From Ignavibacteria bacterium (GTDB lineage Bacteria; Bacteroidota; Ignavibacteria; Tepidaquicellales; OLB5): a stretch of DNA of 39,050 nucleotides. The stretch spans positions 1-39,050 of the forward strand of contig JAIOIK010000177.1 of NCBI GenBank assembly GCA_019912545.1, written 5' to 3'. The notes below the pieces were generated by a model. The model made no database searches. It was not told the DNA's origin and saw only the letters and a list, made by a program, of their open reading frames with translations. Made by a program: the position numbers and the translations under genes. The first letter of the stretch is position 1, and every line of letters starts with the position of its first letter. Positions 9,614-37,113 of the stretch are shown one piece after another.

Positions 9614-11092
9614 ATGAGATCAAAAACAATTTTTTACATATTTATAATACTGATTATGACAATGACTTCAGCAGCACAGGATGAAAAATTAGATAGAACA
9701 AAGCCTCCGAAACCGGGTCCCCCGAAAGATGTTCAGTTCCCTGATTACTTCGATACAACTTTACCAAACGGGATAAATGTACTGGTAATTGAAAACAATA
9801 AAATACCTGCCGTATCGGTGAGGATGGTTTTCAGAGACGCCGGCTCATTTTTCGACGGGAACAATCACGGCCTTGCTTCACTTACTGCTGAACTTCTTAT
9901 CAAAGGGACTATGAACAGGTCTGCTTCACAGATCGCCGAAGAAATTGATTTTGTGGGCGGAAGCCTGAACACCGGCAGTGACTGGGATGGAAGTTACATT
10001 TCACTTTCAGTGCTTAAGAAGCATCTAAATACAGGTATTGATCTGTTAAGCGATGTTGTGCTCAATCCCGTTTTTGCAGAGGATGAGATAAGCCGCGTAA
10101 AGGAGCAAAGGCTGTCATCAATCCTGCAGGCTAAAGATGATGCCGGGCATTTGAGCGATAAGATGTTTAATAAGGTTTTGTTTACTGATATTCAGGGTAA
10201 GTATAAAAGTCCATATGGCTTTCCACCGGAAGGTACGGAACAAAGCGTTAAGGATCTCACACAAAGGGATATAATAGATTTTTACAGTAATCATTATTTC
10301 CCGCAAAAACTTATTATTGCTTTTGTAGGCGACATCACAAAAGAAGAAGCGTTAAGAATTGTAGAAGAGAAGTTATCTGTTTGGAAAAATAATTATAAAG
10401 AGCCTTTAGGGAATGAAATTTCAAAAAATCCCTTCAACACCGGCAATAATTCAGTTTTTGTTGTAAATAAGCCGGGTGCTGTGCAGTCTAATATAAGAGT
10501 TGGACACATTGGTATATCAAGGAACAATCCAGACTATATTGCAGTAACAGTAATGAATACGATTTTAGGCGGATATTTTGGCTCACGGATTAATTACAAT
10601 CTAAGAGAAAAACATGGCTTTACTTATGGTGCCCGGAGCGGTTTCAATCCGCATATAAATCCAGGGGATTTTTCTGTTGATACTGATGTTAGAAATGATG
10701 TAACTGATACCTCAATTGCGCTGATTATTGAAGACCTGAAGGAAATGGTTAAAAATGAGATAACAGATGAAGAGCTTTCAACTGTGAAGAATTACTTAAC
10801 GGGAGTGTTCCCGCTTCAGCTTGAAACTGCAAATTCTGTTGCTTCGAGAGTTATCAACTTAAAGCAGTATGATCTTCCAAAAAATTATTACAGTACATAT
10901 ATCAGTAATATAAATAAACTCACGAAGAAAGATATATTAGATGCAGCGAAGAAATATATTCATCCCGATAACCTGTTCATAGTAGTATCAGGCGATGCCA
11001 GTGCCGTTAAAGATAAACTGAAGCGATTCGGCGAAGTGAAGGTCTTTGATGCAGATGGAGTACAGGTTTTCCCCATTAAAAAGGGGGATTAA
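9614..11092 (+). CDS. M16 family peptidase homologue lacking the zinc motif
   Basis: The 492-residue product has a signal peptide (MRSKTIFYIFIILIMTMTSAAQ), a Pro-rich linker (RTKPPKPGPPKDVQFPDY) and both M16 domains. At the place of HxxEH it reads GLASLTAE (S89, A92, E93), so all three key residues are gone and it cannot bind zinc in the usual way. The C-terminal domain keeps the substrate-groove segment NLREKHGFTYGARSGF. This pattern is known for M16 pairs in which one subunit is catalytic and the other inactive but needed for the peptide channel (as in mitochondrial processing peptidase). The last few residues (FPIKKGD) and the stop codon lie in the left inverted repeat of the DUF559 cassette, so the original C-terminus may have been altered. 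Confidence 0.93.
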   Translation: MRSKTIFYIFIILIMTMTSAAQDEKLDRTKPPKPGPPKDVQFPDYFDTTLPNGINVLVIENNKIPAVSVRMVFRDAGSFFDGNNHGLASLTAELLIKGTMNRSASQIAEEIDFVGGSLNTGSDWDGSYISLSVLKKHLNTGIDLLSDVVLNPVFAEDEISRVKEQRLSSILQAKDDAGHLSDKMFNKVLFTDIQGKYKSPYGFPPEGTEQSVKDLTQRDIIDFYSNHYFPQKLIIAFVGDITKEEALRIVEEKLSVWKNNYKEPLGNEISKNPFNTGNNSVFVVNKPGAVQSNIRVGHIGISRNNPDYIAVTVMNTILGGYFGSRINYNLREKHGFTYGARSGFNPHINPGDFSVDTDVRNDVTDTSIALIIEDLKEMVKNEITDEELSTVKNYLTGVFPLQLETANSVASRVINLKQYDLPKNYYSTYISNINKLTKKDILDAAKKYIHPDNLFIVVSGDASAVKDKLKRFGEVKVFDADGVQVFPIKKGD

Positions 11093-11102
11093 GGTGGTTG
11101 TC
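11071..11102. repeat. Left terminal inverted repeat of the DUF559 cassette
   Basis: CCCCATTAAAAAGGGGG followed by ATTAAGGTGGTTGTC. In reverse complement it matches the repeat at 11465-11495: both carry a C-run, a T/A-rich loop, GGGGG, a short spacer and then GG(T/G)GGTTGTC. It contains the stop codon of the M16 homologue and the TTG start of the DUF559 gene. Confidence 0.65.
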
Positions 11103-11487
11103 AAAAGTACTTTATAATTATGCCTTGAAAGATCTTTCCCGAAAGCTGCGGAATAATGCGACAAAGGCTGAGAGATTATTATGGAAGGAAATAAAAGGCA
11201 GGAAATTGAAAGGATACCAATTTTCAAGGCAGAAGCCAATTAGTAATTATATCGCAGATTTTTATAGTTTCAAATTAAAACTTGTTATAGAATTAGATGG
11301 CGCAAGCCACATTGGAAGAGAAGAATACGATAAGAAAAGACAGAATGATATTGAACTCATTGGATTTACCGTTTTGAGATTCGACAATTCAGAAATTGAA
11401 AATAATATAGAAGCAGTAATAAACACAATTAATAAATATATAGATAATTTTGAAATCACAAACAGACAACCCCCCTACCCCCTTTAA
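11098..11487 (+). CDS. DUF559 endonuclease-like protein (Vsr/PD-(D/E)xK fold)
   Basis: Small single-domain protein of the DUF559 family, related in fold to very-short-patch-repair endonuclease. The 129 residues show the family line in order: LSRKLRNNATKAERLLWKEI, KLKGYQFSRQKPISNYIADF with the first catalytic Asp, LKLVIELDGASH with the E-x-D-G pair, and IELIGFTVLRFDNSEIENN. The start is a TTG inside the left inverted repeat; no ATG is available in frame. The last six residues (QPPYPL) and stop lie inside the right inverted repeat. It overlaps the open frame of the following moxR gene. The biological role of these nucleases is not established. Here the position between inverted repeats points to a mobile cassette. 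Confidence 0.88.
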   Translation: MSKVLYNYALKDLSRKLRNNATKAERLLWKEIKGRKLKGYQFSRQKPISNYIADFYSFKLKLVIELDGASHIGREEYDKKRQNDIELIGFTVLRFDNSEIENNIEAVINTINKYIDNFEITNRQPPYPL

Positions 11488-11495
11488 CAAGGGGG
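11465..11495. repeat. Right terminal inverted repeat of the DUF559 cassette
   Basis: GACAACCCCCCTACCCCC followed by TTTAACAAGGGGG. It is the imperfect inverse of 11071-11102 and also forms a local hairpin, CCCCCTTTAACAAGGGGG. It encodes the final residues and stop of the DUF559 protein and, in the overlapping frame, the PPTPFNKG peptide that would belong to an extended MoxR. Confidence 0.65.
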
Positions 11496-11539
11496 CGGAT
11501 GTCCTCACAAACGGAGATACCACAAACAAGCAAAACGAT

Positions 11540-12511
11540 GTGGAACTTGTTAAGTACCTGAATGTAAAGTATAATGAGTTAAAGAAAGAAGTTGCAAAGG
11601 TTATTGTTGGCCAGGATGCAATTATTGACCAGATAATCATTGCGATCCTATCCCGCGGGCATTGCCTGCTGGTTGGTGTTCCCGGGCTTGCAAAAACTCT
11701 TTTGGTGAAAACCCTGGCTGATGTGCTTGAGCTGAGGTTCAGCCGTATACAGTTTACCCCTGACCTCATGCCAAGTGATATTGTTGGAACTGAAATACTT
11801 GAGGATAATCTCTCAACCGGATCGAAGAATTTTAAGTTTATTCACGGTCCCGTCTTTGCAAATATGGTTCTTGCTGATGAAATAAACAGGACTCCCCCTA
11901 AAACCCAATCTGCATTACTTGAAGCTATGCAGGAGCATAAAGTAACTGCAGCCGGCAGTACTTACACGCTTGATGAACCGTTTTTTGTGCTGGCTACACA
12001 GAATCCGATAGAGCATGAAGGCACATACCCGCTTCCTGAAGCACAGTTGGATAGGTTCATGTTCAACATTTGGCTTGAATATCCCAGCGCAACTGAGGAA
12101 GTTGATATTATCAAATACACTACAAGTATGTACGTTCCAAAACTTAACATTACACTTAAAAAAGATGAGATCATAATGCTGCAGGATCTGGTCAGACGTG
12201 TACCGGTTGCAGACAACGTTATTGAATATACAGTTAATCTGGTTAACAAAACGAGGCCCAGCGGAACAAGCGCGCCAAAGTATATTAAAGACTGGCTTGA
12301 ATGGGGCGCGGGGCCAAGGGCATCTCAATACCTGATCTTAGGTGCGAAAACTAACGCAATACTCAGCGGAAGGTTCTCACCCGAAATTGAGGACATCAAG
12401 AAAGTTGCTAAGCCCGTACTAAGACACAGATTGATAACAAACTTCAATGCCGAAGCCGATGGTATTAAGACAACCGATATTATCGAAAAACTCCTGAGTG
12501 AACAAGGTTGA
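11540..12511 (+). CDS. MoxR-family AAA+ ATPase
   Basis: MoxR ATPases act as chaperones, usually for von Willebrand factor-A proteins. The sequence has the MoxR start LNVKYNELKKEVAKVIVGQD, Walker A GVPGLAKT, Walker B MVLADEINR, the sensor segment FVLATQNPIEHEGTYPLPEA and QLDRFMF, then the C-terminal lid (GAGPRASQYLILGAK, HRLITNF). The frame is open back to a TTG at 11450, but that extension crosses the right repeat of the DUF559 cassette and encodes the repeat peptide PPTPFNKG. I therefore place the start at the GTG at 11540, which gives a normal N-terminus; it has no good ribosome binding site, so the start is uncertain. The usual DUF58 and VWA partners are not next to it. Confidence 0.92.
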   Translation: MELVKYLNVKYNELKKEVAKVIVGQDAIIDQIIIAILSRGHCLLVGVPGLAKTLLVKTLADVLELRFSRIQFTPDLMPSDIVGTEILEDNLSTGSKNFKFIHGPVFANMVLADEINRTPPKTQSALLEAMQEHKVTAAGSTYTLDEPFFVLATQNPIEHEGTYPLPEAQLDRFMFNIWLEYPSATEEVDIIKYTTSMYVPKLNITLKKDEIIMLQDLVRRVPVADNVIEYTVNLVNKTRPSGTSAPKYIKDWLEWGAGPRASQYLILGAKTNAILSGRFSPEIEDIKKVAKPVLRHRLITNFNAEADGIKTTDIIEKLLSEQG

Positions 12512-12689
12512 ATTTGTTCTCCCCCTCAAGAAATCAACGCAGTTGATTTCGCAGTCACGCTTTGGCGTGAAAAAAATAAGCTAGAGGGAGTATCGAAATC
12601 CAGTTCTCCACCTGACAGGGGGTGCTATAGGGGATCATTAACTTAGTAGCATTAACCTTTCAGGTGTAAACCATAAAATTTCAAAAAAC
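12512..12689. repeat. Palindromic elements after moxR
   Basis: A bracketed element at about 12519-12592 has ends CTCCCCCT and AGAGGGAG enclosing two hairpins: GAAATCAAC-GCA-GTTGATTTC (12530-12550) and TCACGC-TTTG-GCGTGA (12555-12570). It is followed at about 12606-12622 by a CCACCT-GAC-AGGGGG hairpin and GGTGCTATAGGGGAT, a G-run segment similar to the DUF559-cassette ends. No gene. Confidence 0.65.
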
Positions 12690-34972: not shown

Positions 34973-35932
34973 TTGCAATTAAACCATAAAATAAATTTAC
35001 TGTTTCTCCTTGCAATTGCGTCCTTGTTGCTTCAGGGAAATCTATCCTCTCAGCAAAGTGATAGTATTAACCTGAGGCTTTCCGGAAATGTTCGCGATAC
35101 ATTGAATTTGAAGACTGCCCGGGAAAACGTATCCGGCGCTCAGTTCATGAAAGAAAAATATAAGGTCAATTACCTGAAAATTGGTGCAATAACCGGTGCA
35201 ACTGCCGGGGCTTTCCTGTGGCTGCATAATTACCAGAAGAATGCATGGTGGAGCGGGCAGCGCGGTAAATTCCATTTTCAAAATGACTGGAACTATGCAA
35301 TGAGCGCAGATAAGTTCGGACATTTTTTTGACGGCGCGTTTATCCAGGCACTTTATAGGGGGGGATTTGAATGGGCAGGTTTAAGTCCTACCGCCTCCCA
35401 GTGGCTGGGTGCCGCTTTCAGCATCGCTTATATGACAGATATTGAGATCGAAGACGGTTTTGCAACTGACTGGGGATTTTCCCCCGGCGACCAGATCGCA
35501 AATGTTGCCGGTGCGCTTTATCCCGTAGCTCAGTATTACTGGAAGCCGCTGAGAAGCGTTAACTTGAAGTGGAGCTACTACCCTTCTGAAGATATACTCA
35601 GCGGAAAAAAACACGGTGCATTTTTGGATGATTATGACGGGCAGACCGGATGGGTATCTTTTAACCTGTGGGACATATTGCCAAAGAAGGCTAAGAAATT
35701 CTGGCCGGATTACCTGAACATAGCAGCAGGTTACGGAGTGAATAACTATACTGACCTTGAAAACCGGTATGCAGATTATTATTTTGGGCTTGACCTGAAC
35801 TGGGAACGGATCCTTCCCGGAAACAGTAAATTCATGCTTTGGTTCAAAAATGTCTTAAACCATTTCCGCTTCCTGCCGCTGCCAGTATTGAAATTCAATA
35901 AAGACGGCGTAACTTATTCGGTAAATTTTTGA
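34973..35932 (+). CDS. DUF2279 (YfiM-like) membrane-associated protein, first of a tandem pair
   Basis: 319 residues starting from a TTG (no ATG is available in frame): signal peptide MQLNHKINLLFLLAIASLLL and onward, a linker, then the DUF2279 core at ~65-190: YLKIGAITGATAGAFLWLHN, WWSGQRGKFHFQNDWNYAMS, DKFGHFFDGAFIQALYRGGF, EWAGLSPTASQWLGAAFSIA, IEIEDGFATDWGFSPGDQIA, NVAGALYPVAQYYW. The C-terminal ~110 residues are rich in alternating aromatic residues and end in SVNF, typical of a beta-barrel-like outer-membrane segment. YfiM in E. coli is an uncharacterised lipoprotein, so no function is claimed. The second copy follows directly; the upstream leader is the palindrome nursery. Confidence 0.88.
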   Translation: MQLNHKINLLFLLAIASLLLQGNLSSQQSDSINLRLSGNVRDTLNLKTARENVSGAQFMKEKYKVNYLKIGAITGATAGAFLWLHNYQKNAWWSGQRGKFHFQNDWNYAMSADKFGHFFDGAFIQALYRGGFEWAGLSPTASQWLGAAFSIAYMTDIEIEDGFATDWGFSPGDQIANVAGALYPVAQYYWKPLRSVNLKWSYYPSEDILSGKKHGAFLDDYDGQTGWVSFNLWDILPKKAKKFWPDYLNIAAGYGVNNYTDLENRYADYYFGLDLNWERILPGNSKFMLWFKNVLNHFRFLPLPVLKFNKDGVTYSVNF

Positions 35933-36093
35933 TGAAAATAAAATCTGAATATAATAGACCTCACCCCCGTCCCCTCGCCCAGAGGGAGAGGGGAGACAAT
36001 CCCAAGATATTAATGAACAATCCCCCTCTCCTTTCAGGAGAGGGGTTAAGGGGTGAGGTAATCAGATACAGATTAACTCAGGAATTTAGTTCT
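35932..36093. repeat. 100-bp CCTCACCCC repeat between the DUF2279 genes
   Basis: Outer arms CCTCACCCC (35959-35967) and GGGGTGAGG (36050-36058) enclose two hairpins, CCCCTC-GCCCAGAGGGA-GAGGGG (35971-35993) and CCCCTCTCC-TTTCA-GGAGAGGGG (36022-36044). In frame with the following gene it encodes the peptide PHPRPLAQRERG, a well-known product of this repeat class in mis-extended protein predictions. Confidence 0.85.
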
Positions 36094-37113
36094 ATGGGAT
36101 TTCTTTTGAAAAATAAATGCACCTGCATAGTTTTGATATTTTTCATAGCATCATTAATCACTTCTTCTGTATATTCGGGAGAGTCCGCCGGGGATAATGA
36201 GATCAAACTGAAGCTCAAAGAGAAAAAGATTGAGTTTGCAAATCTGGAAACCGGGAATTTCAAAATCGGAAATCCATTATTACCCGAAAATGTGTTCAGC
36301 AGATCTGTTTTGGCAAAGGAAAAAAAACTGTATAAGATCAACCCCTGGAAAATGACAGCGCTTGGAGTTGTCGCCGGGGGAATTTTCACGGGACTACATA
36401 TATATTATTCAAACACATGGTGGAAAGATAAAGTGCATTATTTCAAGTTTGCTCAAGACGGTTTTTATGCAAGGAATATGGATAAAGCTTCGCACATTTA
36501 TACTGCAAATGCATTCACCGTGATTACTGCAACCGGTTTTGAGTGGGCAGGTTTATCACCATCCAAATCATTATTATACGGCGCAATAACTTCTATGGCA
36601 TATGAAACCTACATTGAAGTAAATGACGGCCTTGCCCCGAACTGGGGATTTGACTGGGTGGATATGGGAGCAAATTTAGCGGGCGCATTGTACCCGTTTT
36701 TGCAAAACGAAGTGAAGCCCTTCAGGCATATCAATTTCAAGTGGAGCTTTAAACCTGAATGGGTAAAAAAGAAAACTACACAAAGTGATGACTTGCTTGA
36801 TGATTACACTAATATGACTTTCTGGGTTAGCGTGAATCCCATGATCGTCCTGCCAAAATCCATAACCAATGGCAAATTCTACCCTAAATTTCTGGCATTT
36901 GCTTTGGGAATGAGCCTTCAGGATGCAAGCCACGTAACCGGAAGCACAAATGCACAATCGCAGTGGTTTATTTCTATTGATTGGGATGTAAATCAACTGC
37001 CCGGAAAATCTGATTTTATGAAAAAATTGAAGAAAATACTGAATTTTTATCACTTCCCCGCGCCTGCTGTGAGGATATCTCCATCAGGTATATGGTACGG
37101 ACTTTATTTTTAA
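36094..37113 (+). CDS. DUF2279 (YfiM-like) membrane-associated protein, second of a tandem pair
   Basis: The open frame extends upstream to an ATG at 35932 that overlaps the stop of the previous gene, but residues ~8-45 of that version are encoded by the inserted repeat. The ATG at 36094 gives a clean signal peptide (MGFLLKNKCTCIVLIFFIAS and LITSSVYSG) with AGGA about 9 bp upstream, so it is the better start (339 residues). The DUF2279 core is present: WWKDKVHYFKFAQDGFYARN, DKASHIYTANAFTVITATGF, EWAGLSPSKSLLYGAITSMA, IEVNDGLAPNWGFDWVDMGA, NLAGALYPFLQNEVKPF. The C-terminal part again ends in an aromatic YGLYF. About one third of residues match its tandem partner by eye, so the duplication is old. 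Confidence 0.87.
   Translation: MGFLLKNKCTCIVLIFFIASLITSSVYSGESAGDNEIKLKLKEKKIEFANLETGNFKIGNPLLPENVFSRSVLAKEKKLYKINPWKMTALGVVAGGIFTGLHIYYSNTWWKDKVHYFKFAQDGFYARNMDKASHIYTANAFTVITATGFEWAGLSPSKSLLYGAITSMAYETYIEVNDGLAPNWGFDWVDMGANLAGALYPFLQNEVKPFRHINFKWSFKPEWVKKKTTQSDDLLDDYTNMTFWVSVNPMIVLPKSITNGKFYPKFLAFALGMSLQDASHVTGSTNAQSQWFISIDWDVNQLPGKSDFMKKLKKILNFYHFPAPAVRISPSGIWYGLYF

Follow-up and report, generated by a model that had tools for sequence, protein, structure and literature searches.

The window, i.e. the whole stretch of DNA analysed here, covers 39,050 nucleotides of contig JAIOIK010000177.1 from an Ignavibacteria bacterium. Between an M16 peptidase gene and moxR it contains a short DUF559 gene, which is framed by two mutually inverted palindromic elements (Table 1).

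The DUF559 gene and its framing elements in the window

The left element is composed of the imperfect palindrome CCCCATTAAAAAGGGGG, the spacer ATTAA and the tag GGTGGTTGTC, which points towards the DUF559 gene. Its palindrome and tag are partly decayed, and its hairpin is weak and looks decayed as well (z -0.8). The right element, read on the minus strand, consists of the palindrome CCCCCTTGTTAAAGGGGG, the spacer TA and the tag GGGGGGTTGTC, and its hairpin is strong (z -3.1).

Genes and elements overlap at both ends of the unit. As an earlier note on this DNA had described, the DUF559 gene starts in the left repeat and ends in the right one: its TTG start codon at 11098 falls within the left tag, while its last residues and the TAA stop codon (11485-11487) lie within the right palindrome. 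The peptidase stop codon had been described as abutting the cassette, but it (11090-11092) is actually contained in the left element, and the M16 protein ends with FDADGVQVFPIKKGD in the window instead of the FDADGNQLSEK of the close relative G006. The reported invasion of moxR was borne out on the other side, where the moxR frame now begins at a TTG inside the DUF559 gene and runs through the right element (PPTPFNKG).

Table 1. Positions of the genes and repeat elements discussed in the text.
Feature	Position	Strand	Remarks
M16 peptidase gene	9614-11092	+	last codons and stop supplied by the left element
Left triplex-type element	11071-11102	+	palindrome 11071-11087, spacer 11088-11092, tag 11093-11102
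DUF559 gene, putative nuclease	11098-11487	+	129 aa; PF04480 E 3e-37 (Pfam)
moxR gene	11450-12511	+	native start region (MEE..K) replaced
Right triplex-type element	11465-11495	-	palindrome, 2-nt spacer, tag pointing at the DUF559 gene
Possible decayed solo element after moxR (CCACCTGACAGGGGG..)	12606-12636	+	no significant hairpin
Gene-free inverted pair of TGAGGT-tag elements	35958-36059		ends ACCTCACC...GGTGAGGT

The inverted elements are real. A match of about 30 bp had been proposed earlier; the ungapped core of the inverted repeat is 18 bp at 78%. Taken alone, this inverted repeat is only moderately unlikely: its score was reached by 15 of 2000 randomised flank pairs. Because of this moderate value and the weak left hairpin, the case had to rest on relatives; the above-chance status of the arrangement comes from its recurrence at other DUF559 loci and not from the window locus alone. 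The gene-free G-run segment at 12606-12642, previously regarded as a similar copy, shows no significant hairpin (z -0.05) and is a decayed copy at most. The gene-free pair farther downstream, about 100 bp long, reads in frame at the N-terminus of the ORF 35929-37113 and is of the same type as the elements around a second, uvrC-embedded DUF559 copy of the window genome.

The window protein was modelled by AlphaFold2 with a pLDDT of 92. Its matches were the DUF559-like Neisseria protein 3hrl and the catalytic domain of the EDxHD homing endonuclease I-Bth0305I (3r3p, E 1e-4), which is the closest structure outside DUF559. A profile search agreed (3r3p at E 7e-7), with an alignment that covers part of the positions and not all of those of the catalytic residues. 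Sequence profile and fold together indicate the EDxHD catalytic fold, and the enzyme is predicted to be an EDxHD/Vsr-like PD-(D/E)XK nuclease. The earlier label of a Vsr-like nuclease thus holds for the general fold family, but the match to the Vsr repair endonuclease itself is weak (1cw0, E 0.77). In the unit Pfam detected only DUF559 and a related nuclease, and no HUH Y1 tyrosine transposase; PADLOC returned a weak match only, to a methyl-directed restriction enzyme. Residues E25, D54, E65, D67 and H71 (window numbering) are invariant in the family and are kept in the copies nested inside other genes.

Recurrence of the layout and the base rule of the repeats

The window genome contains three full-length DUF559 copies. 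The second (contig C110) lies in frame inside uvrC between palindromes of another type, and the third, which has one stop codon, is likewise accompanied by palindromes. DUF559 was present in 42 of the 59 relatives searched. Across 66 loci, C..G-type palindromes occurred at 3-9 per kb less than 100 bp from the domain and at about 0.1 per kb beyond 1 kb, and palindromes of the opposite order (G..C; GGG-CCC) showed no enrichment near DUF559 at these loci. When the upstream flank was compared in inverted orientation with the downstream flank of the same gene, the median was 18.5, against 9.5 for the flanks of other genes. The corresponding values were 24.5 and 11.5 in an 80-locus sample from Pseudomonadota, deltaproteobacterial MAGs, Dehalococcoidia and Nitrospinota, a non-random sample biased to its bait, a proteobacterial consensus of our own making.

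With detection thresholds of our own, a strict element oriented towards the gene and no more than 300 bp away was found at 49/66 and 70/80 loci of the two samples, together 119 of 146 loci from several phyla. Strict elements reached 7.1 and 9.6 per kb within 50 bp, compared with 0.02-0.04 per kb at 3-9 kb, so their density at DUF559 is more than 100 times higher. The nearest ones pointed inward rather than outward at ratios of 47:19 and 77:21. At 27 of the 146 loci no inward element was detectable within 300 bp. Homologues without inverted repeats had been named in the earlier note as evidence against a mobile unit, and we count these loci in that way, together with the outward-pointing tags of Deinococcus and some deltaproteobacterial loci.

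Matching inverted flanks were also seen at single loci of Pseudanabaena, Sinorhizobium and two Deinococcus species. In the Deinococcus pair (L302, L303), DUF559 lies between hpa genes with long inverted flanks and outward tags, and in one of the two species the flanks are extended by GCCAGCGTTGCTG. A Vsr-like gene of the window genome with a weak DUF559 match (L004; G000 C162:6679-6792) is situated amid large genes resembling a defence island, and no palindromes were seen around it.

At the element copies, the tag is the mirror image of the purine arm of the palindrome, with T or A opposite A, as in the arm/tag pairs AAGGAGGGG / GGGGTGGTT, GAGAGGGG / GGGGTGTG and AAGAGAAGGGGG / GGGGGTTGAGTT. 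Over 281 informative copies this mirror rule gave a z of about 25 against the tags of other loci. A direct-repeat rule (z 5.7) and a reverse-complement rule (z 4.0) fell far below this value and were rejected. In the right element of the window the rule extends over seven consecutive triads (CCCCCTT/AAGGGGG/GGGGGTT). In terms of bases this is the triad rule (G.GC and T.AT or A.AT) of a putative antiparallel class II (purine-motif) intrastrand triplex. The order of the parts agrees: a pyrimidine arm is followed by a purine arm and then by a 3' tract that runs antiparallel to the purine arm and places G opposite G. The moderate significance of the window repeat alone would be in keeping with chance or ordinary terminator hairpins. 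This explanation was ruled out by the control for purine-pyrimidine order and the distance profile; as the more than 100-fold enrichment under composition control and the mirror covariation also contradict it, we give it practically no weight.

Repeats known as BoxC, PIT or TM have been recognised in E. coli since the 1990s and exist in thousands of copies in hundreds of genomes. These names are aliases for triplex repeats, of which TMECO accounts for 3610 copies in 262 proteobacterial genomes; its triplex formed in vitro and raised instability, and mobility activities were never found near such repeats (Holder et al. 2015, PMC4666352). By their sequence pattern, the repeats framing DUF559 belong to this class of intrastrand-triplex repeats, a point that the earlier note overlooked. 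They share with it the class II order with the reverse-Hoogsteen tract at the 3' end, the C/T-rich arm, the dispersed copies and the frequent inverted pairs, and the copies of Dyella, Sinorhizobium, E. coli and uvrC are of the same TGAGG type. The known repeats differ in that no mobility gene was described with them. The copy in the window is richer in AT, has the tag GTTGTC and does not fit the TMECO consensus CCCTCNCCCN3-6GGGNGAGGGN3GGGNGAGGG. No paper connecting triplex repeats with DUF559 was found in the open-access literature.

The DUF559 gene of E. coli K-12 is ycjD. A decayed repeat covers its 3' end, and about 170 bp beyond the stop codon follows a perfect TM copy, which matches the right arm and tag of TMECO exactly. 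Given 23 TMECO copies in 4.64 Mb (PMC4666352), we calculated that such closeness would arise by chance in about 0.6% of cases. Of 5426 complete E. coli genomes, 3365 have ycjD, nearly always at full length. In E. coli lacking it (L280-L282), a TetR regulator and RND efflux operon adjoins fabI and replaces ycjD and sapF, so the junction is not a simple empty site.

Occupied sites, empty sites and dispersed copies

At the M16-moxR junction, DUF559 was absent from all 14 readable relatives, and the window is the only carrier. Among the relatives without it is G006, whose MoxR is 98% identical to that of the window. Comparison with G006 shows that about 80-90 bp, the moxR start among them, gave way to the unit, so that the insertion was not clean; a target-site duplication, the hallmark of a DDE transposon or MITE, was not seen. 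Clean insertion with target duplication was therefore dropped in favour of replacement of intergenic DNA. What stands of the compact mobile unit of one nuclease and two hairpins, with empty sites between the same neighbours, is a recurrent unit at a variable locus; what does not is the cleanness of its arrival. In G013 (L257), two solo palindromes without a nuclease gene are found in the M16 C-terminus and the moxR N-terminus, the same two places as those of the window unit.

Shared flanks at an unrelated locus, which the earlier note had expected of a mobile unit, were present in G001 and G003: their DUF559 genes (57-59% identical) carry the same GGGGGTTGT tag and adjoin thyX and a DUF4239-like gene (names taken from reading the translations).

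All three states exist at the uvrC linker. It is empty in G006, G009, G011 and G012. G002 has in-frame repeats there but no gene, and so do G004 and G010 within the reach of their contigs. In G000 (the window genome), G005 and G008 the linker carries repeat-DUF559-repeat in frame. The repeat-only alleles may have lost the gene by recombination or may represent a stage on the way to its gain. In the window genome (L001 874-3288 on C110), the linker contains the DUF559 domain together with four palindromes, and no intein domain was found by Pfam in the uvrC reading frame, the in-frame case to which Pfam was applied. In HsdR-like frames of two genera (L074 of G020 and L087 of G024), DUF559 lies just before GVVWHTQGSGKS; this shared site could be vertical or due to homing. 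Further in-frame hosts by sequence are hsdM, another DNA methylase and the editing region of leuS, where L085 8061-11054 (G007 C3) reads as a leucyl-tRNA synthetase with DUF559 and palindromes. Many repeat copies have no in-frame stop and could thus land inside genes, where they may be tolerated as extra loops or domains.

These alleles bear on the main rival explanation, a free-standing homing endonuclease that cuts solo repeats or conserved genes and thereby spreads nothing but itself, the repeats being landing sites and homology arms multiplied by another route. The nearest structure outside DUF559, I-Bth0305I, is compatible with such an enzyme, and so are the same uvrC site in three congeners, the same hsdR site in two genera and the repeat-only alleles at uvrC and, in G013, at M16/moxR. 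The number of dispersed repeats of the matching type is at odds with it, as it tracks the gene across and within families, which would not be expected of a pure self-spreader. We therefore consider the homing explanation unlikely.

The dispersed copies were counted by pattern searches. The window genome contains 57 copies of the generic repeat, as opposed to 3 of the reversed pattern. In a comparison of 49 genomes, whose flank types were assigned by eye, the type of the dispersed repeats follows the type that frames DUF559. The ATGGGGG type was found in 11 of the 13 genomes of that type, in 3 of 36 others and in none of 20 TGAGGG-type genomes; the WGGGGG type reached at least 5 copies in 14 of its 15 own-type genomes and no more than 5 in TGAGGG-type genomes. 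The TGAGGG pattern is less exclusive, being common in Azospirillum too.

Among 247 Bacteroidota genomes, at least 3 element copies were present in 71 of 102 with DUF559 and in 13 of 145 without (odds ratio 23, p 7e-24), and the co-occurrence was also seen within families (within-family permutation p<=1e-4). After three flank copies per gene were subtracted, at least 10 copies remained in 18/102 versus 3/145 genomes (p 2.4e-5). Hairpins dispersed without the gene, as suggested earlier, are hence widespread and co-occur with DUF559. Three Bacteroidota genomes (G187, G262 and G288) harbour 14-31 elements without a DUF559 match, which is counted against the mobile-unit reading; these genomes may have lost the gene recently, use another enzyme or carry a DUF559 gene that was missed. 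The nearest DUF559 proteins in other genomes, with mean pair identities of 57% and 68%, share their arm and tag above chance (z 4.2/4.3 and 2.8/2.9). As paralogues within one genome share elements too, part of this match between protein and tag could be a genome effect.

In E. coli the triplex repeats are tied to instability and are markers of rearranging loci (PMC4666352); genes enclosed by them could thus be shuffled. DUF559 might accordingly be a passenger like any small gene, carried by recombination between independently spreading repeats. Flank repeats that are specific to the gene copy and the protein lineage, together with the strong co-occurrence at the genome level, make this very improbable in our judgement.

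A candidate enzyme for intrastrand-triplex repeats

We favour, with moderate confidence, the reading that this segment of the window belongs, as one copy, to a family of small mobile units, each made of a DUF559 nuclease gene and inverted intrastrand-triplex repeats, and that the nuclease drives the spread. The gene lies between inverted triplex repeats in very many bacteria, E. coli among them, which makes its product the first good candidate for an enzyme that spreads or maintains them. The nuclease would recognise its own repeat type, most likely single-stranded and folded at the replication fork, and would nick or cut at the tag or close by. A new site would then receive either the repeat alone or repeat-gene-repeat, through repair or template switching that uses another copy. 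DUF559 would in this way cut or move its repeats much as RAYT proteins act on REP sequences, but with hydrolytic cleavage and repair by the host in place of tyrosine strand transfer.

A housekeeping role has also to be weighed, in which DUF559 is a repair nuclease that resolves replication stalled by hairpins or triplexes and is kept by repeat-rich genomes, the nearby repeats regulating the gene or marking its acquisition. The Vsr-like fold, the instability associated with triplex repeats in E. coli (PMC4666352) and VsrA of Caulobacter, a DUF559 protein that causes an SOS response on methylase loss and for which a role in mismatch repair has been proposed (PMC12907096), are in line with repair. 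We think it rather improbable, since it leaves unexplained why the gene lies between inverted repeats and in frame inside unrelated genes, and why presence/absence alleles exist. Both the housekeeping and the passenger explanations account for fewer facts than the mobile unit.

The closest analogue of such a unit is the REPtron of REP sequences and RAYT (PMC2817692, PMC3733652). In both systems inverted palindromes with tags enclose a gene for a nucleic-acid enzyme, the genome contains numerous copies without the gene as well as inverted pairs, and the repeat type is tied to the enzyme lineage. The differences are that the DUF559 enzyme is PD-(D/E)XK-like, while RAYT is an HUH tyrosine enzyme; that the tag of the DUF559 unit mirrors the arm, while the REP tag is GTAG; and that the triplex rule has not been described for REPs. 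No GTAG tag was present beside the DUF559 palindromes, whose tags are GTTGTC, GTGAGG, GTGGTT, GAGGTT and similar. By this comparison the DUF559-repeat unit is no REPtron, though it would work like one. CGTC-tagged REPs "apparently lack a dedicated transposase" (PMC3733652); a link to them was rejected, as alphaproteobacterial DUF559 flanks carry G-run tags and no CGTC.

I-Bth0305I resembles the DUF559 protein in its fold and in its insertion inside conserved genes, but DUF559 is without the long DNA-binding extension, is framed by repeats and showed no intein domain in the uvrC case. The Rickettsia palindromic elements resemble the DUF559 repeats in being palindromes that interrupt protein genes in frame; no nuclease gene is known to be associated with them, whereas the DUF559 repeats frame one.

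A broader reading, held more tentatively and at somewhat less than an even chance, is that DUF559 proteins, YcjD included, are the dedicated enzymes of triplex repeats, i.e. triplex- or hairpin-guided nucleases that copy the repeats and themselves. They would be separate from REP/RAYT and occur in at least five phyla (Bacteroidota, Pseudomonadota, Cyanobacteriota, Deinococcota and Chloroflexota), with in-frame targets such as uvrC and leuS.

The spread of triplex repeats has been unexplained (PMC4666352) and DUF559, a widespread protein family, has had no assigned role; their link gives each a testable role, and the presence of ycjD in E. coli makes it testable in a model organism. If true, it would reveal an enzyme that may act on DNA triplexes, as well as a route by which important genes acquire in-frame domains.
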